Shown here: in pieces, positions 36,876-62,106 of the stretch
Position numbering within the stretch: position 1 is the stretch's first letter
Layout of the letters: every line of letters begins with the position of its first letter
Source of the DNA: Thermococcus paralvinellae
GTDB lineage: Archaea; Methanobacteriota_B; Thermococci; Thermococcales; Thermococcaceae
Length of the DNA stretch: 64,000 nt
Assembly: GCF_000517445.1 (NCBI RefSeq)
Contig: NZ_CP006965.1
Span: 62,001-126,000 of the forward strand
Reading direction: 5' to 3'
Position numbers and translations under genes: made by a program
Notes under the pieces: generated by a model
The model's input: only the letters and a program-made list of their open reading frames with translations
The model's database searches: none
Told to the model about the DNA's origin: nothing

Positions 36876-37988
36876 CTAGAATAGAGCACCATATTTGTAG
36901 AAAATGTGACATGTTCCTTCATATGAAACCATGCATGGTCCAACTGGATTTCTTGGGGTGCATGTCTTTCCAAAGTGGGGACACTGTGGTGGTAACGCTA
37001 ATCCACGGAGTATTGCACCGCAGAGGCAGCCTTTTTCCAAGTCAGGGAGTTTTGGGACTTCAACGTCATAATAAGTCCTTATCTCCAAGTCTTTGTACTC
37101 TTCTCTAAGCTCAAGTCCGCTCTTTGGGATTATCCCCAAGGCTCTCCATTTTGCATCAACAACTTCAAAGAACTTGTTTATCAGCTTTTGGGCTTCAACA
37201 TTTCCTTCATATTTTACAACCCTCGTATATTCGTTCTCTATTTTTACTTCTCCTTTTCTTATCATTCTCAGGAGTATTAGAATTCCCATCAACACATCGA
37301 CAGGTTCAAAGCCAGCAATGACCTGAGGGATTCCATATTCTGTTGTGATGTACTCCCAGCCTCTAACTCCTATTATCGTGGAAACATGACCTGGGTCAAT
37401 TAGTCCATCAAAGGCTGTGCCCTGCTTAACTAGTGCCTCAACGGCTGGGGGCGTTAAGCGGTGAACAGAATAAATTTTGAAGTTCTCAAGTTTTTCCTCA
37501 ACAACTGCGTTGAGCATTCCAGCTGCTGGAGCTGTTGTGGTCTCGAAGCCGGGAGAGAAATGAACAACCATCCTGTCTGGATTGTTTTTGGAAATTTTAT
37601 ATGCGTCATAAATTGAGTAGACTACTCTAATGTCGTATCCTTCACTTTTCAAGTCGGAAAAACTCCCTCTTGGTGTAGGAATCTTGTACATATCGCCAAA
37701 TGTTGTTAGAATAATTTTTTCTCCTTCTTCATAGGCTTTCCTCATTATTTCTTGCATCTTCACGATGTCCTCAACAGGGGTTATACAGACAGGACACCCA
37801 GGCCCACTGACGATTTTAACGTTTTCTGGCAAGAGCGAGCGGATTCCGCTCCTTGTTACTGTATCCTCATGAGTTCCACAGACGTGCATGATTTTAACTA
37901 TCCTTCCTATTTTTTCAGCTTCCTTGTGAATGAGCCTTGTTATCTTTTGAGCGAGTTCTTTGTCTCTAAAAACACTAAGGGCTTCCAT
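36876..37988 (-). CDS. hypD: [NiFe] hydrogenase maturation protein HypD
   Basis: 370 aa. The family cysteines are present: CGTHEDT, GPGCPVC, CLCGAILRG and the C-terminal cluster in the PHFGKTC to EGTCHIF region, which includes a 4Fe-4S site. HypD, with HypC, assembles the Fe(CN)2CO moiety of the hydrogenase active site. ATG 37988 follows GGGAGGAGTG; an in-frame ATG upstream (38024) lies inside hypC. The gene starts two bases after the hypC stop, giving a hypCD operon divergent from tetR and 1.4 kb upstream of the hydrogenase operon. Confidence 0.95.
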   Translation of the reverse strand: MEALSVFRDKELAQKITRLIHKEAEKIGRIVKIMHVCGTHEDTVTRSGIRSLLPENVKIVSGPGCPVCITPVEDIVKMQEIMRKAYEEGEKIILTTFGDMYKIPTPRGSFSDLKSEGYDIRVVYSIYDAYKISKNNPDRMVVHFSPGFETTTAPAAGMLNAVVEEKLENFKIYSVHRLTPPAVEALVKQGTAFDGLIDPGHVSTIIGVRGWEYITTEYGIPQVIAGFEPVDVLMGILILLRMIRKGEVKIENEYTRVVKYEGNVEAQKLINKFFEVVDAKWRALGIIPKSGLELREEYKDLEIRTYYDVEVPKLPDLEKGCLCGAILRGLALPPQCPHFGKTCTPRNPVGPCMVSYEGTCHIFYKYGALF

Positions 37989-37990
37989 GC

Positions 37991-38215
37991 TCACTCCTCC
38001 CATGCTTTTAGGACTTCTTCCCATGCTTGTAGAATCTCTTTTGCAGTTCTCTCATCTAACTTTTCTATTGCAAAGCCCGTGTGCACAATCACATAATCGC
38101 CAACTTTAACGTCTGGGAGCAAATCTAAACGAGCCTCTCTCTTTACTCCTCCAAAATCAACAATCGCAACGTTTCCGTTGATTTCAAGAACTTTAGCTGG
38201 AACAGCCAGACACAT
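37991..38215 (-). CDS. hypC: [NiFe] hydrogenase maturation chaperone HypC
   Basis: 74 aa. Begins MCLAVPAKV: Cys2, exposed after Met removal, binds the iron precursor and the hydrogenase large subunit. The OB-fold body (VAIVDFGGVKREARL, VKVGDYVIVHTGFAIEKLD) is typical. ATG 38215 follows AGGTGAG. Promoter: minus-strand TATA-like CATTTAAAAACC around 38247-38258. Confidence 0.96.
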   Translation of the reverse strand: MCLAVPAKVLEINGNVAIVDFGGVKREARLDLLPDVKVGDYVIVHTGFAIEKLDERTAKEILQAWEEVLKAWEE

Positions 38216-38383
38216 ATTTCTCACCTGTTCTTAAGTTTGATTGGGGGTTTTTAAATGTTGCATAAAGGGATATTTTTGTACCCTTTCCTAAGGCTTCTCA
38301 TGGAATTACAAGTCTAAAATCCCAAACAAAAACATTTATAATATAATGACTTTGTTCTTTGGATCCATTTTGACTGCCGTAAC

Positions 38384-38430
38384 TTTTTTATATCACGCTG
38401 ATGACTAAGCAGTCAGTATAAATTGGGGAG
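38384..38430 (+). promoter_or_regulatory. tetR promoter with operator copy 1 (TGACT-N4-AGTCA)
   Basis: TATA box TTTTTTATATC (38384-38394), then the 14-base inverted repeat TGACTAAGCAGTCA at 38402-38415 over the expected start site, then GGGGAG (38425-38430) before ATG 38439. The same repeat geometry recurs upstream of the hydrogenase operon, pointing to autoregulation. Confidence 0.7.
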
Positions 38431-38438
38431 TGCCGGGC

Positions 38439-38990
38439 ATGGATACCAGAGAAAGAATTTTAAAAGCTGCAAGAGAGCTCTTTGCTGAAAAAGGCTACGA
38501 TAAAACTACTGTCGATGAAATCGTTGAGCGAGCAGGAGTTGCTAAAGGTACTTTTTACAACTACTTCAGGAGCAAAGAGGAGCTTATAAAAATTGTTGCT
38601 CTTCAGTCTTTACCTTATTCTGCAATAAGAGAAGAGCTTGAGAAGGAACACGAGAGCTTTACAGAATTTCTATACAGTATTGCAAATGCATATATTGTAT
38701 ATTACCGTGATCCAGTCTTACGCTCCCTGTTCTTCTACACATTAGCCGTGAAGAACAAGATAAAGGAAGTTGAGGAAATTCATAGGACATTCTGTACGGA
38801 GGCTATTTCCAAGGGTGCTAAAAAGATCTCACAACTTGCAAATGTAGATGAAAAAACCGCTATGGTTGTTTTTAAGGCGTTCTATGGTGCTCTACTTTCA
38901 AGATTGATCTTTGTAGAGTATTTGTGTATTCCAGATGTTGATTATGTATCGGAAATTATTAGATTGATAGAGAGAAGTTTGAAAAACTAA
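38439..38990 (+). CDS. TetR-family transcriptional regulator
   Basis: 183 aa. The N-terminal helix-turn-helix is clear (ARELFAEKGYDKTTVDEIV, then GVAKGTFYNYFRSKEEL). The C-terminal domain is all-helical and will hold the ligand pocket; it carries cysteines in TFCTEA and YLCIPD that might sense redox or metals. ATG 38439 is preferred over GTG 38430 because the ribosome site GGGGAG overlaps the latter. It lies between hypCD and the hydrogenase operon, and shared operators suggest that it represses both itself and the operon until an inducer appears. Confidence 0.93.
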   Translation: MDTRERILKAARELFAEKGYDKTTVDEIVERAGVAKGTFYNYFRSKEELIKIVALQSLPYSAIREELEKEHESFTEFLYSIANAYIVYYRDPVLRSLFFYTLAVKNKIKEVEEIHRTFCTEAISKGAKKISQLANVDEKTAMVVFKAFYGALLSRLIFVEYLCIPDVDYVSEIIRLIERSLKN

Positions 38991-39261
38991 CAACATTAAT
39001 TTTGCATAATCTCATTTTTTCTGAGCATATTCGTACATTTGAACATGGTTGCTAAAAGCTAGTAAACAGAATTACTAATAGATTTTTATAATGTTAATCA
39101 GTTTGTTTTAAGCAAACAATGCTCTTTTTTATACATCCCAATGTTGTGCTCCAAAGTGCAACTTCATGTACACGGAATGTTACTCATTTTAGCATTTTTA
39201 TATTAGTTTGAATAGTATAATTTAAATTAAATTGCAAAATTTATAACTTATTGTCAGTAAT

Positions 39262-39275
39262 TGACCATATGGTCA
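39262..39275. promoter_or_regulatory. Operator copy 3, perfect palindrome TGACC-ATAT-GGTCA
   Basis: A perfect 14-base palindrome about 40 bases upstream of the operon TATA box. Its spacing (TGACY-N4-RGTCA) equals that of the other two copies, so it may be an upstream or cooperative TetR site. Confidence 0.5.
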
Positions 39276-39312
39276 TAAATTTACATCAAAAAATCAATTA
39301 TGTGTATAACAC

Positions 39313-39352
39313 AATATAAACTGACTAGTCAGTCACAGCTAGTTGGGTGGTG
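39313..39352 (+). promoter_or_regulatory. Hydrogenase operon promoter with operator copy 2
   Basis: TATA box AATATAAA (39313-39320), directly followed by TGACT-AGTC-AGTCA (39322-39335), then GGTGGTG before ATG 39356. Repressor binding here would block RNA polymerase entry between TATA box and start site. Confidence 0.72.
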
Positions 39353-39355
39353 GGT

Positions 39356-41419
39356 ATGGCAGAGAAGCTTGTGCCAGTAGTATGTCCATGGTGTTCTGTT
39401 GGTTGTAGGTTCTATATAGTAAGCGTCAATGGGTATCCTAAGAAAATTGAGTTCGACTACGAGCACGACACTAGGAACCACGGGAAGCTCTGTCCTAAAG
39501 GTGTTTCCTCATTCCAGTACCTCAGACATCCAGACAGGCTTAAGAAGCCCCTCAAGAGGGTTGGCGAAAGAGGTGAAGGCAAGTTCGTAGAGATAAGCTG
39601 GGAAGAGGCAATTAGGGAAATTGCGGAGAAGCTTAAAGAAATAAGGGAGAAATACGGTCCTGAGGCTCTTGCTTTTCTTGGAAGTGAGAGGTGCTCCATA
39701 GAGGAGAACTATGTTCTCCAGAAGCTGGCTAGAGCTTTAGGCACCAACAACCTTGACTACGTTTGTAGAATGTGTCAGTCAACGGCCGTTGCTGGCAAGG
39801 GAATGCTTCTTGGGCATCCTGGTCTTACGAATCCATTCGAGGACATCCTTAAAGCCAAGGTTATCGTTCTCTGGGGATATAATCCAGCCGCAACTAATCC
39901 AGTCTTCTTTGGCCAATACATTGAGAAGGCAATTCTCGACAACAATGCCACTCTCATTGTCGTTGACCCAAGGAAAACGAAGACCGCCAAGTACGCGGAT
40001 ATACACCTGCAGCCATATCCTGGAACCGACCTTGCCATTGCCTTGGCTATGCTCAATGTCATAATCACTGAGGAGCTTTATGACAAGGACTTCGTGGCGG
40101 AGCGCGTAGAAGGCCTTGAGGAGCTTGCCAAGACCGTTGAGAAATACACTCCAGAATGGGCCGAGAAAGTCAGCGGTGTTCCGGCTGAACTCATAAGGAA
40201 GGCCGCAATCATCTTTGCAACGGCTGGAACTGCCGCCTTGCTGACGAACGAGGGTGTTAACCAGCACGCCAACGGAACAAGAACAGTTATGGCCCTCACC
40301 GAGATGATGGTTCTCTGTGGCTACTTCGGAAAGGAGGGAGTTATGTCTGGAGCCATACCAGGTGCCCACAACGGTATGGGCGCTGGACTCATGGGTGTAG
40401 AACCAGATGCACTGCCAGGAAAGTTCCCACTTCACGCTGAAGAGCACAGGAGGAGAATTGAGGAAGTGTGGGGCTTCAAGATTCCGGAGAAGCCTGGAAT
40501 AACTTACGTCGAGATGATTGACGCAATCCTTGAGGGTAAGCTCAAGGCTCTCTACGTTATGGGAACTAACCCAGCAAAGTCCCTCCCGAACCTAAAGAAG
40601 GTTGAAGAAGCGTTTAAGAATATCGAGTTCCTCGTTGTCCAGGACATCTTCCTCACTGAAACCGCGAGATACGCTGACATAGTCCTCCCAGCGGCTGCAT
40701 GGTTTGAGAAAGATGGAACTGCTGTAAGCTTCGAGAGGAGGGTTCAGAGGAGCTTTAAGGCTGCTGATGCGCCAGGAGATGCTAAGCCAGATTGGGAGAT
40801 TATCGTAATGCTCGCGAAGGAGCTTGGACTTGGGGAGTACTTCAACTACTCCGATGTGGACGATATACTGAGGGAGATAAACAGAACTATTCCATTCCTC
40901 ACTGGTGCCACACCAGAGAGACTCAAAAAGAACCTTAAAGGCTGTATGACACCGTGTCCAGACGAGAGCACCGAAACACCGAGACTCTTTGTCCAAGGCT
41001 TCCTGACACCAAACGGAAAGGCCCAGCTCATTCCTGTGGAGTATAAAGAGCCTGGTGAAGTTCCCGATGAGGACTACCCATTCTGGCTCACCAACTACAG
41101 GTTTGTTGGTCAGTTCCACACTGGAACCATGAGCCACAGGAGCAAGAGCCTGAGCAAGAGATGGCCGGAGGAGTACATTGAGATCAACGAGAACGACGCG
41201 AAGAGGCTTGGCATAAAGGACGGCGACCTCGTGAAGGTCGAGACCAGAAGAGCAGCACTGGTTCTCAAGGCTAAGGTCACGCCGCACATTAGGGAGGGTG
41301 TCGTCGCTGTTCCATGGCACTGGAACTTCAACTACCTGACCACGGATGTCCTCGACGAATACGCCAAGATGCCCGAGCTGAAGACAGCTGCTTGTAGAAT
41401 TTCTAAGGTTGAGGGGTGA
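39356..41419 (+). CDS. Formate-dehydrogenase-like Mo/W-bis-pterin oxidoreductase, catalytic subunit
   Basis: 687 aa, FdhF-like length. Cys10, 13, 17 and 46 bind a 4Fe-4S cluster; Lys48 follows, as in FdhF. Cys140 is the metal ligand (selenocysteine 140 in E. coli FdhF). The next residue, the catalytic His141 of FdhF, is Gln here, and the gapless alignment of the AIPGAHNGMGAG loop puts Pro where FdhF has Arg333. Both are needed for formate chemistry, so formate as substrate is in doubt. The first gene of the hydrogenase-antiporter operon, start supported by GGTGGTG. It should feed electrons through the next ferredoxin-like protein to the membrane hydrogenase. Confidence 0.88.
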   Translation: MAEKLVPVVCPWCSVGCRFYIVSVNGYPKKIEFDYEHDTRNHGKLCPKGVSSFQYLRHPDRLKKPLKRVGERGEGKFVEISWEEAIREIAEKLKEIREKYGPEALAFLGSERCSIEENYVLQKLARALGTNNLDYVCRMCQSTAVAGKGMLLGHPGLTNPFEDILKAKVIVLWGYNPAATNPVFFGQYIEKAILDNNATLIVVDPRKTKTAKYADIHLQPYPGTDLAIALAMLNVIITEELYDKDFVAERVEGLEELAKTVEKYTPEWAEKVSGVPAELIRKAAIIFATAGTAALLTNEGVNQHANGTRTVMALTEMMVLCGYFGKEGVMSGAIPGAHNGMGAGLMGVEPDALPGKFPLHAEEHRRRIEEVWGFKIPEKPGITYVEMIDAILEGKLKALYVMGTNPAKSLPNLKKVEEAFKNIEFLVVQDIFLTETARYADIVLPAAAWFEKDGTAVSFERRVQRSFKAADAPGDAKPDWEIIVMLAKELGLGEYFNYSDVDDILREINRTIPFLTGATPERLKKNLKGCMTPCPDESTETPRLFVQGFLTPNGKAQLIPVEYKEPGEVPDEDYPFWLTNYRFVGQFHTGTMSHRSKSLSKRWPEEYIEINENDAKRLGIKDGDLVKVETRRAALVLKAKVTPHIREGVVAVPWHWNFNYLTTDVLDEYAKMPELKTAACRISKVEG

Positions 41420-41424
41420 TTTAA

Positions 41425-41922
41425 ATGAGCAAGAAGATATTTATCGATTTTAAGCGCTGTATCGCCTGTAAGGCCTGTGAAGTTGCCTGTGAAATGGAGC
41501 ATGGAGAAGCTAGGATTAGAGTTTTTGAGTTTCCCGACTTGACCAGTGTCGCCTTCAACTGTCGCCACTGTGAAAAAGCCCCGTGTATGGAAGTCTGTCC
41601 TGTCAACGCGCTCTCCAAGGACGAAGATGGTGCAGTTATTCTCGATCCTCTCAAGTGTATCGGCTGTCTCATGTGCGGTCTGGCCTGTCCATTCGGCATT
41701 CCAAAGATAGACGAGTACAACAAGATAATGGATAAGTGCGACCTCTGTGCCCACAGGAGAGCGGAAGGCAAGCTTCCTGCCTGTGTCTCAGCGTGTCCAA
41801 CTGAGGCCCTCAAGTACGGCGACATAAACGACGTTCTCTGGGCTAGAGAAGAAAGAATAGTAGCCGAGCTTAAGGATATCGGCGACAGAACTAATGTCCT
41901 TGAAGCGTACATCATCAGGTGA
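41425..41922 (+). CDS. Polyferredoxin-type electron-transfer subunit (HycB/FdhB-like)
   Basis: 165 aa with four 4Fe-4S motifs: CIACKACEVAC, CRHCEKAPCMEVCP, CIGCLMCGLACP, and CDLCAHRRAEGKLPACVSACP. Such HycB-like proteins carry electrons from the molybdo-enzyme to the hydrogenase. ATG follows GGGGTGAT, five bases after the catalytic subunit stop. Confidence 0.93.
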   Translation: MSKKIFIDFKRCIACKACEVACEMEHGEARIRVFEFPDLTSVAFNCRHCEKAPCMEVCPVNALSKDEDGAVILDPLKCIGCLMCGLACPFGIPKIDEYNKIMDKCDLCAHRRAEGKLPACVSACPTEALKYGDINDVLWAREERIVAELKDIGDRTNVLEAYIIR

Positions 41923-41935
41923 TGGGGGTGCAGAG

Positions 41936-43387
41936 ATGGACGCTTTTCCCTTCCTCGTATCTTTTTTAATTCCTCTGCTCTTTGGTCCCATCCTGTTTAA
42001 ATTAGACGGTAGAAAAGCTGATGTGTTCATGCTCATCGCTGTTGTGTCTTCCTTCCTGGCTAATCTGATTGGAGTCCTTGAATACCTAAAGGTCGGTGGC
42101 GCTCATCACATCGTTTACCTCGAAACTTCTTCCCTCGGTGAGGTCTACGGCGTTATAATCGACCCGATGAGCGTTTTGGTCGGTTTTGTCGTGAGCTTGG
42201 CTGGCGTGCTGTTCCTTCTCTATGCGGTGGACTACATGAGCGAGAGGAACAAGCAGCACCCTGTCTACTCTGATAAGGGAAGGTTCTACGCCTGGATGGT
42301 TATCTTCGTTGGAGCAACGCTGGCATTCATATACTCCTCAACGATGCTTCAGTTGCTCATATTCTTCGAGATAATGGGGCTTGCGTGTTGGGGTGTTGTT
42401 GGTTATTATAAGAGTTCAAAGGCTGAGAGAGCTGCATACAAGGCTCTTCTCGTGCCGAATTTCGGTGCGATGGTTGGTCTCTATACTGCTGTTGGTATTG
42501 GTATCCTCAAACTCCATGATCTTAGTCTTTATGCTCTTCAGAACCTGAGCGACGACCTTAAGCTTCTGGTCTTCTTGGGCATAATGGTTGCTGCTTTCAC
42601 CAAGAGTGCCCAGTTCCCACTCTATTCATGGCTTCCAGACGCGATGGCAGCGCCGACACCGGCAAGCGCCTTCCTTCATGGAGCAGCAATGGTTGAGATG
42701 GGAGTTTACCTGCTCGCTAGGGTTACCCAGTTCATGCAACCGATTCCGGAGACAGCTTTCTACGTTATGCTCGTCTTCGTGTCGCTAACTTTACTCATAA
42801 CAATTCTCTACTACCCGCTCCAGAAAGACGCCAAGAGACTCCTTGCTTACTCCACCATAGCAGAGGCAGGGGTAATGTACGTCGGCGTGCTCTATGCCGT
42901 GCTCGGCTCGGCTTACGGCCTCCAGGCGGCCATGTTCCAGCTGGCCAACCACGCTTTCGTCAAGGGTCTTGCCTTCCTCACCGCAGGAACCTTCAGTTAC
43001 GCTTTTGGAACGCTCGACATGGAGAAGATTAAGGGCCTCGGAAAGCTCGTTCCGGTCGTTGGTGCAAGCTGGTTCTTAGCCCTTCTCGGCCTGGCTGGAG
43101 TTCCTCCGCTCGGCCTGTTCTTCAGCAAGGCGTATCTCTTCATGAACGCGTCTTCAATAACTAGCTGGGTTGGGTGGATTCCGCTCTTCCTAGTGTTGGC
43201 CGATGCCACGGTTTTCCTTGCGGTATCTCTCGGATGGATTAAGAGGATGGTATTCAGCGAGCCCCTCCAGGAGAGTGCAGAAGTTTCCCCGCTGATGCGC
43301 TTTGTCCTCGTAGTCCTAATAGTCCTGTCCATCGTTGCGCCGTTCCTAAGCGTGAAACTCGTGACTCAGATAGGGTTCATGGGGTGA
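41936..43387 (+). CDS. Membrane hydrogenase proton/ion-channel subunit (NuoN/MrpD-like)
   Basis: 483 aa, about 14 membrane helices. The antiporter-like core carries the conserved elements: Glu in LLIFFEIMGLACWG, the Lys of FTKSAQFPLYSWLPDAM, and the discontinuous helix with SAFLHGAAMVEMG. It is likely to translocate H+ or Na+ when the hydrogenase turns over. ATG 41936 follows GGGGGTG; an in-frame ATG at 41894 would overlap the ferredoxin gene and add a non-hydrophobic leader. Confidence 0.88.
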   Translation: MDAFPFLVSFLIPLLFGPILFKLDGRKADVFMLIAVVSSFLANLIGVLEYLKVGGAHHIVYLETSSLGEVYGVIIDPMSVLVGFVVSLAGVLFLLYAVDYMSERNKQHPVYSDKGRFYAWMVIFVGATLAFIYSSTMLQLLIFFEIMGLACWGVVGYYKSSKAERAAYKALLVPNFGAMVGLYTAVGIGILKLHDLSLYALQNLSDDLKLLVFLGIMVAAFTKSAQFPLYSWLPDAMAAPTPASAFLHGAAMVEMGVYLLARVTQFMQPIPETAFYVMLVFVSLTLLITILYYPLQKDAKRLLAYSTIAEAGVMYVGVLYAVLGSAYGLQAAMFQLANHAFVKGLAFLTAGTFSYAFGTLDMEKIKGLGKLVPVVGASWFLALLGLAGVPPLGLFFSKAYLFMNASSITSWVGWIPLFLVLADATVFLAVSLGWIKRMVFSEPLQESAEVSPLMRFVLVVLIVLSIVAPFLSVKLVTQIGFMG

Positions 43388-43393
43388 TGCGGG

Positions 43394-45370
43394 ATGATGG
43401 AAATTCCGATCGCGCTCTACTCACTCTCAGCGATTTCCGGTCTGGTTGGGGACTTTAAGCGGAGCATTAAGATTTCGAGCGTCTTATCAGCCATGGCATC
43501 CTTATCCCTCCTGGGCATAGCTGCCCATGCCCTATCCAAGGGGCTTCCCGTTCAGGAGAGCTTTTTGGGCATTCTCCTAATCATAGACAGCCTCTCCCTC
43601 CCGTTCCTGTTCATCATCGCACTGCTCAGCCTCGTGGTTTCAGTATACTCTATCTCTTATATGGAAGTCCACAGAGATACCGGAAGACCCCTAGCATATA
43701 CCCTCCTCTACGGTACGTTTGTGATATCAATGATATTTGTGGCTCTGACGTCAAACCTGCTCTGGTTCGTCTTTTTCTGGGAGATGATGACTCTAACTTC
43801 CTTCGTCTTCGTGAGCTGGAGGGAGCAGGACGCTGGAATTAAATACCTCCTCACGATGCAGCTCGCCAACACGGTGCCCCTCTTCGTAGCCCTCGGCATA
43901 ATCTACTCCGCCACTGGAAGCTTCAGCGTTGATTACGCCACGCTTAAGGAGGTTGCATCTTCCCTTTCTCCAGTCCAGCTCAAGCTGCTCTACGCTATGT
44001 TCCTCGTAACTTTCCTTGCGAAATCTGGAAGCGTGCCCTTCCAGTTCTGGGTACCTGATGCCTACGAGGCAGCTCCCAGCAATATAGCCTCGCTGATGGC
44101 CGGCGTCATGGAGAAGATGGCGGTTTACGGTCTGATAAGGCTCCTCTGCAACGCCCTGCCATGCAGTGAGAGCGTTGGCTACGTTCTCGTCATCGTCGGC
44201 ATACTCACCATGGCCTTCGGAACCCTCTATGCCCTCAGAGAGACCCACGCGAAGAGACTCCTGGCGTACTCAAGCGTTGGACAAATGGGCTACATCTGGT
44301 TCGCGGTGGGCATGGGTATGGTCTTCTTAGCAAAGGGCATGGAGAGCCTGGCCTACTTGGCCTTCCTCGCCGGAGTCTTCCACTCCTTCAATCACACCCT
44401 CTTCAAGGGGCTGCTCTTCCTCATCTCAGGCAACTTCGAGTACTCTACCGGAACCGCTGACCTCAACGAGCTTGGTGGCTTGAGGAGGGCAATGCCGTAC
44501 TCGTCGCTCTTCACCGTCATAGGTGCGCTTTCCCTCGCTGGAGTGCCCCTCTTCAGCGGCTTCCTCTCGAAGTGGATGATTTATCAGGCCGGCTACTACT
44601 CTGGGATTGGCCTCTTTGTCTTTGGCTCGGTGATGGCGGTGTTCATGAGCGCCGTAACCTTGGCGTACTCGCTCAAGTTCTACACTTCTGCCTTTGGAGG
44701 TGAACCGAACGAGAAGACTGAGAACGCTAGGGAAGTCCCGTCGGGCATGCTCCTCGGTGAGGGAATTCTGGCTTTAATCTCACTTGTCATTGGAGTGTTC
44801 CCTGTCATCGCTTATCCACTCTTGACGATTTCGGTGAAGAGAAGCGTTGCCGTTACAATGGGCTCGATATCCACTGACTTTGAGTATTTCTCTCCAATAG
44901 ATCTGCTCCTTGCGGCTTCATTCTTTGCAGTTGCTTCGTACTTTATATTCAGACCAAAGACAGCCAATGTCAAACCCTGGAACGCTGGAGCGCTCTTCCT
45001 GCCGGAGGAGAGGTACGGAGCGAAGGCCAGAGACTATTACAGGCAGTACTTTACTGAGATGGGGAACCTTTACAAGCTTGGAAGTGCTGCTGGCAGGATC
45101 GGAAGGGCCTTTCTCTCTGCCCTGATGTCTATCTACCTCGTTCTTGCCAGGGGCCTCGTCTACACTGGCAGGGAGAAGAAGCGTTCCTTCACCCTCAGTG
45201 AGCTTCGTCATTACAGCGCTAGATACCTAGATGAAGCATTCTTCGCGCCGATAATGGATTTAGTCAAAAACATCGCAGTGCTGGCAGTGGGCATCTCGGT
45301 GTCCATGGACGAGCTCTTCCTAGCTTCAATGCTGACTACGGTGATAATACTCGCTCTCCTGGTGCTGTGA
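43394..45370 (+). CDS. Membrane hydrogenase subunit, HycC/HyfB (NuoL)-like
   Basis: 658 aa, with about 15-16 helices. Contains the antiporter-type core (VFFWEMMTLTSFVFVSW; FLAKSGSVPFQFWVPDAYEAAP; SLMAGVMEKMAVYG) and a long C-terminal part with a last helix, as in NuoL-type lateral-helix subunits. Start 43394 (or adjacent ATG 43397) follows GGTGAT overlapping the preceding stop. Very GC-rich segment. Confidence 0.88.
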   Translation: MMEIPIALYSLSAISGLVGDFKRSIKISSVLSAMASLSLLGIAAHALSKGLPVQESFLGILLIIDSLSLPFLFIIALLSLVVSVYSISYMEVHRDTGRPLAYTLLYGTFVISMIFVALTSNLLWFVFFWEMMTLTSFVFVSWREQDAGIKYLLTMQLANTVPLFVALGIIYSATGSFSVDYATLKEVASSLSPVQLKLLYAMFLVTFLAKSGSVPFQFWVPDAYEAAPSNIASLMAGVMEKMAVYGLIRLLCNALPCSESVGYVLVIVGILTMAFGTLYALRETHAKRLLAYSSVGQMGYIWFAVGMGMVFLAKGMESLAYLAFLAGVFHSFNHTLFKGLLFLISGNFEYSTGTADLNELGGLRRAMPYSSLFTVIGALSLAGVPLFSGFLSKWMIYQAGYYSGIGLFVFGSVMAVFMSAVTLAYSLKFYTSAFGGEPNEKTENAREVPSGMLLGEGILALISLVIGVFPVIAYPLLTISVKRSVAVTMGSISTDFEYFSPIDLLLAASFFAVASYFIFRPKTANVKPWNAGALFLPEERYGAKARDYYRQYFTEMGNLYKLGSAAGRIGRAFLSALMSIYLVLARGLVYTGREKKRSFTLSELRHYSARYLDEAFFAPIMDLVKNIAVLAVGISVSMDELFLASMLTTVIILALLVL

Positions 45371-45380
45371 GGTGATGAGG

Positions 45381-46283
45381 ATGGATTATGTAAGTTTAAT
45401 TGCTGCTCCAATAGTCATTTTCCTCCTTCCTCCACTCCTTGATGGAATAGGACGAAAAATAAAGGCAAGGATTCAATACAGAAGAGGTCCACCAATAATG
45501 CAGACGTTCTACGACCTCGAAAAGCTGCTCAAGCTACCGTCGGTGCTTCCAACTGACAGCCCAATCTTCAGACTGGCCCCATACATAGCCTTGGCATTTG
45601 CCATTACTGGTGGCCTAATGCTTCCCTTCGGAAGTGAGCCTGTGTTAGCTTTTGGAAAGAGCCTCATAGTGTTCTTCTACGTCATGGCGATGGTCAGCGT
45701 AGTGATGATACTTGCTACTTTCTCCGTCCAGAACGCGTTTTCACACATAGGCGGACACAGAGAGGTCATGCTGATACTCTCGATTGAGCCAGTGCTGGCC
45801 GTCGTCTTCGGTGTCCTGGCATTCAAGCTTGGAACGCTCAACGTCGCTAAGATGCCCTTCAGTGCTAGCCTCTCGCTTTCTGTTGTCCTCGCTTACATCC
45901 TGCTGGCTTACGCAGTCTATGTTGAGGGTGGTTTTGTACCATTTGATATAGCCGAGGCAGAGACTGAGATAATTGGAGGGCCTCTCACTGAGTACAGTGG
46001 AAGACTCCTTGGAATATTCAAGTACTCTCTCCTAATAAAGAGGATAGTACTGCTCTGGCTACTATCTTCATTGGTTACGATTCCTGCTTTGGATTTCCTC
46101 GGTATAACCAGCTCTATAGTACTGTTTATTGCCCAACTTGTCATGGCTTTCTTGTTGTATTCACTTGCTGTGGTATTAGAGGCTGCAAATGCTCGTTTGA
46201 GAATTGACCAGGCAGTTTCCCTGAATAAGAAAGTTTTCCTCCTGTCCCTAGTTGTCCTGTTGATAGCATTGGTGGGGTGGTAA
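45381..46283 (+). CDS. Membrane hydrogenase anchor subunit, HycD (NuoH)-like
   Basis: 300 aa, eight helices. The NuoH family motifs are seen: LDGIGRKIKARIQYRRGPP and DLEKLLKLP near the N-terminus, the acidic GGFVPFDIAEAETEIIGG and GPLTEYSGRLLGIFK stretches that contact the hydrogenase module. ATG 45381 with GGTGA five bases upstream; other in-frame starts (45372, 45375) sit in that site. Confidence 0.92.
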   Translation: MDYVSLIAAPIVIFLLPPLLDGIGRKIKARIQYRRGPPIMQTFYDLEKLLKLPSVLPTDSPIFRLAPYIALAFAITGGLMLPFGSEPVLAFGKSLIVFFYVMAMVSVVMILATFSVQNAFSHIGGHREVMLILSIEPVLAVVFGVLAFKLGTLNVAKMPFSASLSLSVVLAYILLAYAVYVEGGFVPFDIAEAETEIIGGPLTEYSGRLLGIFKYSLLIKRIVLLWLLSSLVTIPALDFLGITSSIVLFIAQLVMAFLLYSLAVVLEAANARLRIDQAVSLNKKVFLLSLVVLLIALVGW

Positions 46284-46286
46284 ATC

Positions 46287-48038
46287 ATGGAGTGTAGCGT
46301 GTGTGCGGGTGGATGCAAATCCGCGGAGGTTGAGGATGTTCTTGAGGATGGTCATCTGAGGAGGTTTGTGGAGAAATTCAAAGAATTTATTTTTGAATGT
46401 AAAAAGCTTACAAGAAACCAGTACTTGTTTGTAGTCGATAAGAACGCCCTTCCAGAAATGGTGCTCTACTGGCACAACAACTCTGAGCTAAAAGAGACTC
46501 ACTTCTCGATGGGAATTGGAACTGACGAAAGGAGCATTGCTGGAAAATTTGCATACGCTCCGGTGATAAATGTTACCGTTGAGCCTGGGAATGGAGATAA
46601 GAACTACTGGGTTATCTTGAAGGCATATCTTGACGAAGACAACCCTGAATTTCCCTCAATAGCTGCAGAGCTTCCAGCTGCCCTCTGGGCAGAGAGGGAA
46701 GTTTACGATCTTCTTGGCTTAAACCCTAAAGGTCATCCTGACTTAAGGAGGCTTGTCCTGCCTGAAGACTGGCCTGAGGGTGTTTATCCACTCAGAAAAG
46801 ATCACGACTACAAAGCATCTCCAATGGATACTCCCAAGTGCTATTACAAACCTGGACCACCAGACACTATGACAGTTCCGATAGGCCCTTATCATCTTGC
46901 ACTAGATGAGCCAGCTCACTTTAGAATATTTGTCAAGGGAGAAACAGTAGTTGACGTTGATTACAGGGGATTCTATTCGCATAGAGGAGTTGAAAAGATA
47001 GGAGAGGGAAGACTGACCTACAATCAGGTGCTCTTCATAGCCGAGAGGATATGTGGAATTTGTGGCTTCCAGCACTCGACGAGCTATGCCCAGGCGGTTG
47101 AAAACATAGCCGGCGTTGAAATCCCCGAGAGGGCCATGTACATAAGGACGATAATGCTCGAGCTTGAGAGGATTCACTCACACATGCTCTGGGCTGGTGT
47201 TGCGGCTCACCTGACGGGCTTTGACACGGGATTCATGCACGCTTGGCGCGTCAGAGAGCCTGTTATGTGGCTCGCAGAGAGGCTCACAGGAAACAGGAAG
47301 ACCTACGGAATCAACATCGTCGGAGGAGTTAGGAGGGACTTCCTCGACTACCGCAAGGAGATGATAATGGAGAAGATCAAGGAGCTCAGGAGGCAGGTCG
47401 AAGAGTTCATCGAAATAGCGACCGGTACGGCAACCTTCGTCAAGAGGGCTGAGGGAGTTGGAATTCTGCCGTACAAGGTGGCCAAGGCCTACTCAGTCCT
47501 TGGTCCGAACGGAAGAGCCAGCGGGAGGAACATTGACGTTAGGAGAGACCAGCCCTTCGCGGCATACAAGGATTTGGACTTCAAGGTTCCAGTCTACAAG
47601 GAGGGCGACGTCTTGGCAAGGTTCCTCATCAGGATGGACGAGGTGCTCGAGAGCATCTGGATAATCGAGCAGGCCATTGACCAGATGCCCGGAGGAGACG
47701 TCTTCGTGCCGATAGGAGAGCTCCCAGAGTATGAGGAGGGTCTTGGTTACAGTGAAGCTCCAAGGGGTGAAGTCATCCACTACGTCATGACTGACAAGAA
47801 GAACAAGGTCTACCGCTGGAAGGTTAGAGCCCCGACCTACAACAACCTTCCAGCTGTTCCGGAGATGCTCAAGGGCTACAGCGTTGCCGATGCCCCGCTC
47901 ATCATAGCGAGCATAGATCCGTGCTACTCCTGTACGGAGAGGGTTCAGATAGTGGACGTTGAGACTGGGAAGGCAAAGATCCTGAACGAACAGCAGTTCA
48001 ACATGCTCTCGATAGAGAAGGGCAAGGGGGTGGCCTGA
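46287..48038 (+). CDS. [NiFe] hydrogenase large subunit fused to NuoC-like domain (HycE type)
   Basis: 583 aa. Residues about 20-180 are the 30-kDa (NuoC) domain (ALWAEREVYDLLGLNPKGHPDLRRL); the rest is the group 4 [NiFe] large subunit. Nickel ligands: Cys256 and Cys259 in RICGICGFQH, and Cys546 and Cys549 in DPCYSCTER. Unusually, the extreme N-terminus carries CSVCAGGC (Cys3, 6, 10). Base composition shifts from moderate to high G+C inside this gene at roughly 47080. Evolves H2 with HycG-like partner. Confidence 0.94.
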   Translation: MECSVCAGGCKSAEVEDVLEDGHLRRFVEKFKEFIFECKKLTRNQYLFVVDKNALPEMVLYWHNNSELKETHFSMGIGTDERSIAGKFAYAPVINVTVEPGNGDKNYWVILKAYLDEDNPEFPSIAAELPAALWAEREVYDLLGLNPKGHPDLRRLVLPEDWPEGVYPLRKDHDYKASPMDTPKCYYKPGPPDTMTVPIGPYHLALDEPAHFRIFVKGETVVDVDYRGFYSHRGVEKIGEGRLTYNQVLFIAERICGICGFQHSTSYAQAVENIAGVEIPERAMYIRTIMLELERIHSHMLWAGVAAHLTGFDTGFMHAWRVREPVMWLAERLTGNRKTYGINIVGGVRRDFLDYRKEMIMEKIKELRRQVEEFIEIATGTATFVKRAEGVGILPYKVAKAYSVLGPNGRASGRNIDVRRDQPFAAYKDLDFKVPVYKEGDVLARFLIRMDEVLESIWIIEQAIDQMPGGDVFVPIGELPEYEEGLGYSEAPRGEVIHYVMTDKKNKVYRWKVRAPTYNNLPAVPEMLKGYSVADAPLIIASIDPCYSCTERVQIVDVETGKAKILNEQQFNMLSIEKGKGVA

Positions 48039-48655
48039 TGGCCCAGGCGATTTCGTTCACCGACAGGCTCAAGTTCTGGAAGCGACCAGAGGAAGACGTT
48101 AAGAAGGCTCCCGTCACGACTTCTTATCCTTTTGCTGATATCGAAAAGCCGCCGGAATATAGGGGCATACCCCACATAGACCCTTACCTCTGCATTGGCT
48201 GTGGCGCCTGTGTTAGGGCCTGTCCACCAGATGCGCTCACGATAGAGTGGGACTTCGAGAACGGGAGGAAGAGAATAGTCTTCAACGCCGCGCGCTGCAT
48301 AAGGTGCCACCGCTGCGTCGAGGTTTGTCCAACCGGTGCGATGCAAGGCACAACGAGGTTCGAGATAGCGACGCCGAACAAGGAGGATCTCATTGAGGTC
48401 GTTGACCACAAGCTCTACAGATGCCCGCGCTGTGGGAAGTATGAGGAGTTCACCGAGAGGCAGATACAGAAGATGTTCCAGATTCTTCCAAAGGAAGTTA
48501 TTGACCAGCACGGCATAGCCGAGAGGGCTTTTCTCTGCAGGGAGTGCAGGATGGAGGAGAGTGCTAAGACCTTAGCGGTTCAAGGGTCCTATGCGGATAG
48601 CCTTCTCCTTTCACTCTATCCGAGAGGCTCAAAGGTGATGGGTGAGAGGAGATGA
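48038..48655 (+). CDS. Ferredoxin-like hydrogenase subunit (HycF/NuoI type) with C-terminal zinc-ribbon-like tail
   Basis: 205 aa. Two 4Fe-4S motifs (CIGCGACVRACPPD and CIRCHRCVEVCPTG) link the electron input to the small subunit. A further cysteine set (CPRCGKY and, ~40 residues on, CRECRM) suggests a bound metal or zinc ribbon. The start ATG shares one base with the preceding TGA (TGATG), implying translational coupling. Confidence 0.92.
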   Translation: MAQAISFTDRLKFWKRPEEDVKKAPVTTSYPFADIEKPPEYRGIPHIDPYLCIGCGACVRACPPDALTIEWDFENGRKRIVFNAARCIRCHRCVEVCPTGAMQGTTRFEIATPNKEDLIEVVDHKLYRCPRCGKYEEFTERQIQKMFQILPKEVIDQHGIAERAFLCRECRMEESAKTLAVQGSYADSLLLSLYPRGSKVMGERR

Positions 48656-49452
48656 GCAGGTTGAAGTCCGTTTGGGTCTTCCACGTTGACAGTGGGAGCT
48701 GCAACGGCTGCGACATTGAGATACTCGATGTGCTCACGCCGTACTACGACGCCGAGAGGCTCGGAATAAAGCTCGTGCCGAGTCCAAGACATGCTGATGC
48801 CCTCCTCGTTTCGGGCCCACTCACGAGGCAGACGTACTACGCCGTCAAAGCAGCCTACGAGGCGATGCCGCCGAAGCCGAGGATAGTTGTGGCTATAGGA
48901 ACATGTGCATCGAGCGGTGGGATATTCTACAACGGCTATCCAATCTATAACCCGAATCCAGAGAGGGGAAGCGACAGGCTCAGGACTGGCGGAATAGAGG
49001 TTCTTTTGGCGGAGTACGGGAAAAAGCCCGACATGTACATACCAGGATGCCCACCGAGTCCGGAGGAGATACTATATGGACTGGCTCAGCTTCTCGGCCT
49101 GAAGGAGAAGAAGATGAAGGGCGAGTACTACTACGCAGACGAGATTGAGTTCGTTCTTCCAGAGAGACCGATCGAGGAGAGGATTTACCTGACGCTCAGA
49201 GAATCCCTGAGGCGCGTCGTGGGGTACTTCGACAGGGAGAAGGTTCTCGAGGACTTCATGGCCCTCGTGGAAAAGGCCCAGGAGAGCGAGAACCCGAGGG
49301 AGAGGCTCCACGAGCTAGTCATCGGCTACTTCCTGAGGGAGAAGGACTCCCGTGTGAAGTTCGCGATAAGGTTCCTCGAAAACGAGTACTGGAGGTTGAA
49401 GGATGCCTACGAAAAGAAGCACCTGGCACTTGTTAAAGCTGGTGTACGTTAA
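48652..49452 (+). CDS. [NiFe] hydrogenase small subunit (HycG/NuoB type)
   Basis: 266 aa. Proximal 4Fe-4S ligands: Cys17 and Cys20 (SCNGCDIE), IGTCASSGG, and PGCPPSPEEILYG. No signal peptide or distal clusters, as in group 4 enzymes. A ~100-residue C-terminal charged extension (after ERPIEERIYLTLRESLRR) goes beyond the minimal NuoB fold. ATGA overlap with the previous gene. Confidence 0.94.
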   Translation: MSRLKSVWVFHVDSGSCNGCDIEILDVLTPYYDAERLGIKLVPSPRHADALLVSGPLTRQTYYAVKAAYEAMPPKPRIVVAIGTCASSGGIFYNGYPIYNPNPERGSDRLRTGGIEVLLAEYGKKPDMYIPGCPPSPEEILYGLAQLLGLKEKKMKGEYYYADEIEFVLPERPIEERIYLTLRESLRRVVGYFDREKVLEDFMALVEKAQESENPRERLHELVIGYFLREKDSRVKFAIRFLENEYWRLKDAYEKKHLALVKAGVR

Positions 49453-49708
49453 TCCGCCTTACGTCTCGAAGGCGATGGCACACTTCGCCGGTGACATGGC
49501 TGTGCTGGAAGAGCTGGGGACGCTGAGGGAGAAAACTGTTGAGGTAATCAAGGAAAGCCTTGGGACAAAAAGAGACGAAATAGACCTATCGCTGAGCGAC
49601 CTGATACTGATACCCATGGAAAAGCTGCCCGAGGACGACAGAGAGTTCTTGCTAAAGATTGTTCAGGAGCTTGAGGGAGATGCCAAACTCAAGATAGTGA
49701 GGAGGTGA
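49403..49708 (+). CDS. Small conserved operon protein of unknown function
   Basis: 101 aa, soluble, mixed alpha/beta. Not recognised. Its start overlaps the hydrogenase small-subunit gene by 50 bases in another frame, behind GGAGGTTGAAGG; a shorter form from ATG 49475 (MAHFAGDMAVLEEL) is possible. It sits exactly between the hydrogenase module and the antiporter module, so it may be a linker or assembly factor. Confidence 0.6.
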   Translation: MPTKRSTWHLLKLVYVNPPYVSKAMAHFAGDMAVLEELGTLREKTVEVIKESLGTKRDEIDLSLSDLILIPMEKLPEDDREFLLKIVQELEGDAKLKIVRR

Positions 49709-49712
49709 TAGT

Positions 49713-49997
49713 GTGAGTCTTGAGTCCCAGTTCTTTCTACTTATGAAGTTCGTGATACCAATTTACCTGTTGGCATTCATCCTCTACGCTGTTAGGGCAT
49801 TTAAAGGCCCAACGATAGTAGACATAGTCCTTGCCGTTGACTGTCTGTCCTTTGATGTAGCTGCGTTCATGGCAATTCTTGCGGTTTACTTCAAGAGCGT
49901 TTACTTAGTGAGCGGGGCGATGATTCTAGCGCTCTGGGGCTATTTGCTGGACATTTACATAGCAAAACACTTGGTGAGCAGGGAGGTGGGAGCATGA
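49713..49997 (+). CDS. Mrp-type Na+/H+ antiporter subunit MrpF
   Basis: 94 aa, three membrane helices, with the family segment FKGPTIVDIVLAVDCLS. GTG start behind GGAGGTGAT. First of the antiporter genes that follow in ATGA-type overlaps (F, G, B-like, B, C, E, D). Confidence 0.85.
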   Translation: MSLESQFFLLMKFVIPIYLLAFILYAVRAFKGPTIVDIVLAVDCLSFDVAAFMAILAVYFKSVYLVSGAMILALWGYLLDIYIAKHLVSREVGA

Positions 49998-50347
49998 GCG
50001 TTCTGTTCTACCTTGGGGCAGCCCTCATCGTCATAGGGGCGCTTTGTGACTTGTTTGGTGCTTTGGGTCTGCTCCGCTTCCCTAACTTCTATGTTAGGCT
50101 GCACGCCGCGACCGTGGGCATCATCGGCGGTGCAGCGGTTCCGCTCTTCGGCGTTGCTCTCCTCGCTCTCGGCGCGGACTTCCTGCCGAACAGATATGCT
50201 ATAGCTGGAGCGAGCTTTGTCACTGGTGTCACAGTGCTTCTCGCTTCTCCAGCTGGAAGTCACGCTCTGGCCTACGCCGCTCACAAGGCTAAGCTTGTCC
50301 AGAGGCCAGAGATTGACCATTTGGCAGAGGTGAGAGATGATGATTGA
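49994..50347 (+). CDS. Mrp-type Na+/H+ antiporter subunit MrpG
   Basis: 117 aa, three helices; GLLRFPNFYVRLHAATVG is the MnhG/PhaG signature. ATGA overlap with mrpF. This gene is among the most GC-rich of the window (for example 42 of 60 bases G or C at 50101-50160). Confidence 0.9.
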   Translation: MSVLFYLGAALIVIGALCDLFGALGLLRFPNFYVRLHAATVGIIGGAAVPLFGVALLALGADFLPNRYAIAGASFVTGVTVLLASPAGSHALAYAAHKAKLVQRPEIDHLAEVRDDD

Positions 50348-50594
50348 AATTCATCTGTTAATCCTCAGCCTTGCTCTCATGCTCGGCTTTGTCGCCAGCT
50401 ATCTAGCTGTGACTGAGAAGGATCTGCTCAAAGCGGTCGGATTTTCGGCAGTGCAGGCCATATCTTATGCTATAGTTTTCTACATCCTTATGGCTCCCGA
50501 CATTATCCTCGCCTATATAGCGATAGCCGTGGGAATATATTCAGCTCTGCTCATCTTCGCTATCAGCAAGACCGGGAGGTACGAGGTGGTGTGA
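50337..50594 (+). CDS. DUF4040-type antiporter subunit (MbhD/MrpA-C-terminal-like)
   Basis: 85 aa, three helices, including EKDLLKAVGFSAVQAISYA and MAPDIILAYIAIAVG, the DUF4040 pattern that corresponds to part of MrpA in bacteria and MbhD in archaeal hydrogenases. Start 50337 or 50340; overlaps mrpG by 11 bases. Confidence 0.85.
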   Translation: MMIEIHLLILSLALMLGFVASYLAVTEKDLLKAVGFSAVQAISYAIVFYILMAPDIILAYIAIAVGIYSALLIFAISKTGRYEVV

Positions 50595-51368
50595 ATGAGG
50601 GGCAAAAGCCTCATCACGGCGGTTATAATCCTGACCTTCGCCGCGCTCATGACTTACGCAGTGGTTTCTCTCCAAGTCTTCGGTGAGGGTATTGGAGTTA
50701 GACCCCTTGGCGAGTTCTACCTTGAAAACAGCTATTTCGGGGATTACTCTGCCAGGAGTCCTGAGGTTGTTACCTCAATTCTCTGGGACTACCGTGGCGT
50801 TGACACGCTCTTCGAGACTGCAGTGTTCTTCCTCGCAATAATAGGCAGCCTGACCGTCTTCAGGCTCACCAGGGAGCAGGAGAAGGAAGTCAAGAAGGCT
50901 GAAAGCACTCCAACCGAGTTGACGCCAATAGTGAAGGACGTTACTAAAGTTATCGTTGTTATGATTCTTGCTGTCTCGGCCTCGATTGCTTTGCATGGTC
51001 ACTTAACTCCTGGAGGGGGCTTCCAGGGTGGTTCGGCATTGGCTGTGGCACCACTCCTCATAATAGCGGCATACTCAAAATACACCCTGGAAGGCCACGG
51101 TATGGACAAAACCAGAGCTTTAATCCTTCGTTCCATCGGACTGCTTGGCATAGCCCTGGTTGCTCTGGTTCCACTCCTCAGCGATGGCTTCATCATGCAG
51201 AATCAGCCAATTTTCCCAGCAGAAGTTAATGGTCAATTAATCGGTGGTTCTCTAATCTACTACAACTTTTTCGAGTTCCTCGCAGTTGGCGCTGGATTCA
51301 CGGCGGTGTTCCTCCTCCTAAGCATACCAGAGGAGAAGTTCAAGAAAATCCTGGGGGTGAAGAAATGA
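50595..51368 (+). CDS. MrpB-type antiporter subunit with N-terminal MbhE-like part
   Basis: 257 aa. The first ~100 residues (with the DYRGVDTLFETAVFF motif) match the MbhE-like/MrpA C-terminal piece; the rest is MnhB (HGHLTPGGGFQGGSALA; NFFEFLAVGAGF). It is thus a fusion of two pieces that are separate genes in the Mbh operon. Start directly abuts the previous stop. Confidence 0.88.
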   Translation: MRGKSLITAVIILTFAALMTYAVVSLQVFGEGIGVRPLGEFYLENSYFGDYSARSPEVVTSILWDYRGVDTLFETAVFFLAIIGSLTVFRLTREQEKEVKKAESTPTELTPIVKDVTKVIVVMILAVSASIALHGHLTPGGGFQGGSALAVAPLLIIAAYSKYTLEGHGMDKTRALILRSIGLLGIALVALVPLLSDGFIMQNQPIFPAEVNGQLIGGSLIYYNFFEFLAVGAGFTAVFLLLSIPEEKFKKILGVKK

Positions 51369-51757
51369 GCACTTCAGAGTTTCTGTGGGCTTACCTCTGG
51401 GTCGTCTTACTGCTCACGCTGGCGGTATCGCTGTACGGCATAATCGCTAGACCAAACATGCTGAAGAAAATCATATCGCTCACGATACTCGGTGATGTTG
51501 TTAACGTCATGGTGGTCTTCATAGGCTACCGCTTCACTTATCCAGTGGCCCCGCCGATACTGCCGTCCCTTTCAAAGGAATCCCTCAGTCAGTTTGTGAA
51601 CACTGCCGTTGACCCGCTTCCACAGGCCCTTGTCATAACCGCCGTAGTCATAGGAATGGCCGTGAACATGCTCTTGGCTGTGCTGACGATACAGCTCTAC
51701 CGCCTCTACGGCACGCTCGATGTCAGAGAGATAGCCAAGAGAGGTGGTGAGGAATGA
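51365..51757 (+). CDS. Mrp-type antiporter subunit MrpC (NuoK-like)
   Basis: 130 aa, three helices, with DPLPQALVITAVVIGMAVN, the MnhC/NuoK signature. ATGA overlap with mrpB. Confidence 0.9.
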   Translation: MSTSEFLWAYLWVVLLLTLAVSLYGIIARPNMLKKIISLTILGDVVNVMVVFIGYRFTYPVAPPILPSLSKESLSQFVNTAVDPLPQALVITAVVIGMAVNMLLAVLTIQLYRLYGTLDVREIAKRGGEE

Positions 51758-52239
51758 GGGGTGTCCTTCCAACTGCTTTACTTGTCTTTATCACTTACGT
51801 GCTCTTCACAGGTTCTGCCAGTCCCTACGACCTACTCACAGGTGTGATCGTTGCCATAGGTGTGGGACTGCTAATGGGTAAATACGTCGTCCAAAGCGAC
51901 ACTAAGGCTCTAAATCCAGTGAGGTGGCTCTGGGGAGTCATTTACTTCTTCTGGTACATGCTCGTAGCCGAGACCAAGTCCCACTTGGACGTTATACGCA
52001 GGATAATCACTGGCGACTACAATCCTGGAATAGTTAAGGTTCCCGTTGATGTCGAGACGAGCTACGCGAAAACGCTCATCGCCAACTCAATAACCAATAC
52101 GCCGGGAACATATGTGGTTGACATGGATGAGAATTATCTCTACGTGCACTGGATTGACGTAGCAACTGAAGATCCCGAAAAGGCAAGAAAGGAAATATCC
52201 GCTGACTTTGAGAGATTTGCAAAGAGAATACTGGAGTGA
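51754..52239 (+). CDS. Mrp-type antiporter subunit MrpE
   Basis: 161 aa. Two or three N-terminal helices and a cytosolic domain with SITNTPGTYVVDMDENYLYVHW-like strand typical of MnhE (LIANSITNTPGTYVV). ATGA overlap with mrpC. Confidence 0.9.
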   Translation: MRGVLPTALLVFITYVLFTGSASPYDLLTGVIVAIGVGLLMGKYVVQSDTKALNPVRWLWGVIYFFWYMLVAETKSHLDVIRRIITGDYNPGIVKVPVDVETSYAKTLIANSITNTPGTYVVDMDENYLYVHWIDVATEDPEKARKEISADFERFAKRILE

Positions 52240-61300: not shown

Positions 61301-62106
61301 CCTACGGGGCTGGGGTAAATTTGGCAGTTGAATCATCGGGCTGGAGGAATGACGAGGATTTAGCTAAAGTGTGGGTTCAGTGGAGCGGCTATGCTTATGG
61401 AAAAGACGCCTTTGGCGTTGAAGCTCATGAATCATTGGTTTTGAACTTAAGAGAGGTGGATGTAATCAACAGAAACCACATAAGCGATGAGCACGACCCG
61501 ACGAACTGTTGCTGCTATTTTGCACATCACGGGGGCTTTAAGACGGCTGTTGATGCCTTAACAGGCAAGAACGTTGAAGTGGTTCAGACAGACACAAGGG
61601 ACATAAGCGATGCCAAAATAGTTGACATGAAAGTTGAGCTTGAAAGGGTCGTTAGGGCAAAGCTCCTCAATGATAGGTGGATTGAGGAAATGAAGAAGCA
61701 TGGTTACAGAGGGGCTAGTGAGTTCTCCAAGAAGATTCTTCACTTATACGGCTGGGAAGCTACAACAAAGCTCGTTGAAGATTGGGTTTTTGACGAGATA
61801 GCACAGAAATACGTTCTAGATGAAGAAATGAGGAGATGGTTCGAGGAGCACAATCCCTACGCTATTGAGGAAATTGCAAGGCGTTTGATTGAAGCTTATG
61901 AGCGCGGCTTGTGGAAGACGAGTGATGAATTAATTGAAAAGCTCATGGAGGTCTATTCCGAGATTGAGGGAATTTTGGAGGAGAGTCTTGGTGAAGGGGA
62001 AGTTCAAGGCGGGACAATTGAAATCTACACAGCTGAGGATGACAAACACTGGAGTGAAAAAATTGGGGAGGTGGATAAAATATGGAGCCTCGTGAAAAAC
62101 GCTTAG
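58348..62106 (+). CDS. CobN/BchH-type tetrapyrrole metal chelatase large subunit
   Basis: 1252 aa, the size of anaerobic CobN-like proteins. Hallmarks: [42 protein letters not shown]-type segment and [23 protein letters not shown]. Unusual features: a cysteine set Cys481, Cys486, Cys491 before the [10 protein letters not shown] motif, and [11 protein letters not shown] (Cys1054-1056, His1060-1061) near the C-terminus. Class I chelatases put Co or Mg into a tetrapyrrole using ATP through a ChlI/ChlD motor, which the next gene encodes. ATGA overlap with the ATPase gene ties it to the importer. Substrate not established. Confidence 0.9.

Follow-up and report, generated by a model that had tools for sequence, protein, structure and literature searches.

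What controls the Group 4 formate-hydrogenlyase-like operons of the Thermococcales, and to which metabolite does that control respond? The question is raised by a locus of Thermococcus paralvinellae (NCBI RefSeq assembly GCF_000517445.1, contig NZ_CP006965.1) that lies within the window, the whole stretch of 64,000 nucleotides analyzed here (positions 62,001 to 126,000 of the forward strand; coordinates below count from its first letter unless given as genome positions). A gene for a TetR-family regulator (tetR, 38439..38990, plus strand; 183 aa; ATG start, with an alternative GTG at 38430) is followed, after a gap of 365 nt, by fdhA and fdhB and then by membrane [NiFe] hydrogenase and Mrp genes, and by its gene content this downstream operon is the Group 4 fhl operon. 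In its treatment of that group, a 2023 review places a tetR gene approximately 350 nt upstream, without a SurR site, and calls the control unknown (PMC10025317). The same treatment describes this operon and regulator gene and does not name operators, autoregulation, a hyp link, or active-site substitutions; the nearby tetR is already published and the control mechanism, as far as that treatment extends, was not. As a concrete operator and regulon prediction for this operon family, we propose that three sites (op1 to op3) are very probably operators of the adjacent TetR, which in its ligand-free form would repress both tetR and the Group 4 operon and would be released by ligand.

Three sites of one geometry around tetR

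Three plus-strand sites fit TGACY-N4-RGTCA: op1 (TGACTAAGCAGTCA, 38402..38415) in the tetR promoter, op2 (TGACCATATGGTCA, 39262..39275), the putative upstream operator of the operon, and op3 (TGACTAGTCAGTCA, 39322..39335), its putative main operator. An earlier note on this DNA had picked out these sites, and both sequences and coordinates proved exact. They are the sole exact matches in the window, where 0.19 would be expected and where none of 100 shuffles reached three. Of the other half-site spacings between 0 and 14 bp, none is repeated in the region. The op1 form TGACCTCGCAGTCA and similar forms are kept in sister species, and op3 can also be read as a spacing-0 palindrome (CTGACTAGTCAG), leaving its center ambiguous.

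The genome-wide motif search that the earlier note had called for gave a divided answer. Only seven matches occur in the 1,957,742 bases of the genome, three of them tightly clustered, but the pattern as such is not enriched, since the reversed control yields 12. At background density, three sites inside 934 bp have a probability of approximately 2e-6 over the genome, which speaks against the random scatter that the note had named as grounds for abandoning its proposal. The remaining four matches look like background: three are intragenic, and for the single intergenic one (genome position 1503268) an exact counterpart was not found in the aligned region of the sister species G089. A wide genome-scale regulon in T. 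paralvinellae was rejected on these grounds. The four background-like matches are also what would favor coincidence as the source of the likeness among op1, op2, and op3; nevertheless, coincidence is extremely improbable and was rejected, given the rarity of the pattern in the window, the cluster probability, and conservation of the sites in 39 genomes.

Conservation of the sites with TetR

The sites and the regulator occur together. With a threshold of >100 bits, a TetR ortholog is present in 39 of the 94 Thermococcales genomes sampled, forming two sequence groups: in 8 genomes, including that of the window, the protein is 84-100% identical to the window TetR, whereas in the more distant group of 31 genomes identity is 33-44%. 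Judging by gene order, tetR of T. onnurineus is probably TON_0282. The op3-type pattern TGACYRGTCAGTCA was found in all 39 genomes with TetR and in none of the 55 others, near tetR or at the fdhA promoter, while its reversed control gave 2 matches over all 94 genomes. The pattern was defined after 30 of the 39 loci had been read, so that independent evidence comes from three observations: the 55 TetR-less genomes lack it, the 9 genomes not yet read have it, and no copies lie elsewhere. Taken naively, this co-occurrence has a probability of 2e-27, a figure that is too strong because the genomes are related. The sites nevertheless persist between TetR proteins that are only one third identical.

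Among the 30 loci read, the fdhA-side site is present in 29 and the tetR-side site in 25. The locus outside the 29 is that of G004, in which the operon is inverted and the fdhA promoter lies approximately 15 kb from tetR, yet op3 and op2 (104 bp spacing) are kept; the sites thus travel with the promoter. Conservation upstream of orthologous operons, set beforehand as a test that could refute the proposal, was therefore borne out by the 29 of 30 fdhA-side sites and the identical sets of 39 genomes. This comparative evidence strongly supports a TetR that regulates both its own gene and the downstream operon.

The protein itself belongs to the TetR family. The TetR_N helix-turn-helix domain (PF00440) scores 79.6 bits (E 1.4e-22), and an AlphaFold model (predicted local distance difference test, pLDDT, 90), built on an alignment of only 7 rows, has an all-helical TetR fold. 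Foldseek matches of the model were FasR, NalC, and PfmR, at query template-modeling (TM) scores of 0.75-0.81; since these are generic TetR proteins, the fold was rejected as a guide to the inducer and no ligand is claimed from it. A contig search with TetR returned mostly distant bacterial TetR proteins, aligned chiefly over the helix-turn-helix domain. Cys119, a single cysteine in the ligand-binding domain, is invariant in all 30 aligned homologs and is a possible thiol or ligand-contact site.

The sites also resemble a measured operator. Selection and binding assays on SbtR, a TetR protein of Thermus thermophilus, showed a preference for TGACTGGCCAGTCA, with TGACCGGTCAGTCA as the best site in the genome (PMC4948773). 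An op3-class site with exactly the letters of TGACCGGTCAGTCA occurs in G046 and G067, and this favors a TetR protein as the factor that binds the sites. The SbtR operator TGACYRNNYRGTCA shares the 14-bp geometry and nearly all letters with op3 (PMC4948773), and by this sequence comparison op3 has the 14-bp TGACY...RGTCA form of SbtR-type operators. SbtR is bacterial and differs from the window TetR in targets and gene neighborhood; the two are likened by operator only, and orthology is not claimed. For repression of a local gene set by an archaeal TetR protein, FadRSa of Sulfolobus acidocaldarius is a precedent by analogy: it represses a local metabolic cluster through few semipalindromes, with one to two dimers per site (PMC6449355).

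Alternatively, a different regulator, conserved with the operon by happenstance, could own the sites. TetR binding is here a prediction, and a separate conserved element at 39180-39196 points to possible action of other factors in the intergenic region. We regard this explanation as quite improbable, however, because site and tetR occupy identical genome sets, including those with TetR homologs at 33-44% identity, because the promoter of tetR itself bears the site, and because the site matches the measured operator of SbtR.

Promoter geometry and the direction of control

The positions of the sites relative to promoter elements suggest how TetR would act. The tetR TATA box (TTTTTATAT, 38385..38393, plus strand), read from the sequence and conserved in L005-L010, ends 8 bp before op1. 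On the operon side, 28 of 29 loci have a transcription factor B recognition element (BRE) and TATA box 21-38 bp upstream of op3, so that op3 falls close to, or immediately after, the expected start of transcription; by this comparison op3, not op2, is the site that marks the conserved operon promoter. The earlier note had placed op1 and op2 just downstream of the TATA boxes of tetR and of the operon. This holds for op1, but the TATA-like box before op2 (TTTATAAC, 39240..39247, plus strand) is, in the alignment, common only to G089 and is not the conserved operon promoter of the relatives. We thus rejected op2 as a general marker of the main operon promoter.

The window has itself departed from the ancestral arrangement. 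Relative to G089, a 44-bp deletion (junction 39315-39316) removed the ancestral operon BRE/TATA and cut the op2-op3 spacing to 60 bp from the 103-104 bp, or approximately ten helical turns, seen in G089, G039, G071, and G004. The junction also made the motif ATATAAA (39314..39320, plus strand), which starts 8 bp before op3. This junction box and the TATA-like box preceding op2 are the candidates for the present-day operon promoter in the window.

In the proposed mechanism, a TetR dimer would occupy each site, with op3 possibly accommodating two overlapping dimers. Ligand-free TetR would block its own promoter through op1, which lies between the TATA box and the expected start site, and would block the operon promoter through op3, at the position that it holds in relatives. 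In four relatives op2 lies some ten helical turns farther upstream, a distance at which dimers could bind cooperatively or the DNA could loop around the promoter. TetR would then be released by a ligand tied to the metabolism of the operon. Of the autoregulation and operon repression that the earlier note had predicted, control of both units is backed by conservation (39 of 94 genomes; 25 of 30 loci), whereas the sign of that control is read from site position only.

The intergenic region between tetR and op2 contains a further conserved element, TTACTCATTTTAGCATT (also written TTACNCATTTTAGCATT), at 39180-39196. It is strongly kept in all eight close relatives, with ATTTTAGCATT identical, and this suggests another regulatory element or factor.

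The genes on the other side of tetR bear on the direction of control. In the window, hypC (38002..38215, minus strand; translation MCLAVPAKV...) diverges from tetR, followed by hypD (36876..38024, minus strand; NCBIfam TIGR00075, 450 bits), and no operator match lies between 38216 and 38401 in the hypC promoter. In many Thermococcus genomes of the distant TetR group, an extra copy of the site lies directly against the BRE at the divergent hypC promoter, ahead of a DUF302 gene; in G021 and similar genomes that lack the DUF302 gene, the hyp-side site is still present. The hyp genes at distant-group loci encode HypC, a second HypC-family protein, HypD, HypF, and an AIR-synthase-type protein that is probably HypE. 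The DUF302 gene (L038:6675-7058), which has this operator in common with hyp in many Thermococcus genomes, may also belong to the regulon.

Alternatively, TetR might bind these sites but, at some of them, activate transcription or have a dual role. In many Thermococcus genomes the hyp-promoter copy borders the BRE on its upstream side, a frequent position for archaeal activators, and Hyp and Fdh1 proteins respond oppositely to sulfur. The corresponding Fdh1 proteins of T. onnurineus are raised or seen only on sulfur, unlike its other hydrogenases, while HypE and HypF fall (PMC4463584), which argues against hyp and the operon being simply repressed together. At tetR and fdhA, however, the site lies 3' of the TATA box, where binding should block initiation or escape, and the hyp-side site also just precedes the DUF302 gene and may serve that gene instead. 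We therefore consider activation unlikely, and repression of tetR and the operon by ligand-free TetR the better account.

SurR may account for the hyp behavior in T. onnurineus. This regulator controls hydrogenase operons in Thermococcales; it belongs to a different protein family from TetR and recognizes a different motif, GTTN3AAC, of which no match occurs in 38200-39360.

Several points nevertheless weigh against TetR-mediated repression as set out here. The pairing of TetR and site is a pattern of sequence, from which binding and repression are predicted, and the 94 genomes are not phylogenetically independent. A recognizable tetR-side site is missing in the g3 loci G005, G007, and G011 and in G038 and G071. 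In addition, hyp and the operon are not simply corepressed in T. onnurineus (PMC4463584), and at hyp the site is upstream of the BRE, where archaeal activators can also sit.

The FdhA active site and the substrate of the operon

The earlier note had expected the inducer to reveal the true substrate of the system, a remark made apt by an FdhA that lacks catalytic His and Arg residues. Formate dehydrogenases have a conserved Cys/Sec-His-Arg site (PMC8965080). The fdhA-like gene (39356..41419, plus strand) encodes a molybdo/tungstopterin oxidoreductase that falls within the formate dehydrogenase family TIGR01591 (724 bits versus a cutoff of 666), but alignment to solved enzymes places Cys-Gln at U140-H141 of Escherichia coli FdhF and Pro at R333. 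Of the triad that defines metal-dependent formate dehydrogenases, Cys is thus kept, His is replaced by Gln, and Arg by Pro; the protein belongs to the sequence family but departs from the functional formate dehydrogenase family at two defining residues. The substitutions run through the TetR-linked relatives, with Gln for His in all 28 readable sequences and Pro for Arg in all 27 (G004 agrees), while His and Arg are both retained by most formate dehydrogenase paralogs of the fhl and nfd types from these genomes. A search of the open-licence literature found no paper reporting the Gln/Pro substitution in FdhA.

The rest of the operon (plus strand throughout) is that of an energy-conserving hydrogenase complex. 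An fdhB-like 4Fe-4S electron-transfer protein (41425..41922) is followed by membrane hydrogenase and Mrp-type antiporter genes (41894..52239), among them that of the NiFe large subunit (46287-48038), which keeps the CGIC and DPCYSC nickel ligands and thus the CxxC and DPCxxC motifs of Group 4 [NiFe] hydrogenases. The features of Group 4 fhl operons (PMC10025317) are all present, the absence of a formate transporter from the operon being judged by the list of open reading frames only.

With the His and Arg of formate dehydrogenases missing from FdhA, formate may well be neither inducer nor substrate. Since this loss is conserved lineage-wide, we hold it an even question whether the operon encodes, not a formate hydrogenlyase, but an H2-evolving, ion-pumping complex for another substrate, with TetR sensing that substrate or a close metabolite. 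The Group 4 treatment in the 2023 review reports lower expression of the T. paralvinellae operon on formate than on maltose or peptides (PMC10025317). Expression of T. litoralis fdh-mhy (up on peptides, PMC2432063) was set aside, as its 71.6-kDa FdhA and eight-gene operon seem closer to another fhl group. The possibility of a non-formate substrate lifts the finding above the routine: if it is true, the ligand that frees TetR from TGACYRGTCAGTCA would disclose the substrate, and the operators, together with the missing FdhA residues, would offer a practical way to find what is used by a widespread energy-conserving hydrogenase complex that bears the label "formate hydrogenlyase." G089 also has a second fdhAB pair (L160:7463-10035), which, with neither an operator nor hydrogenase genes directly beside it, is of the same Cys-Gln/Pro type, its FdhA being 74% identical.
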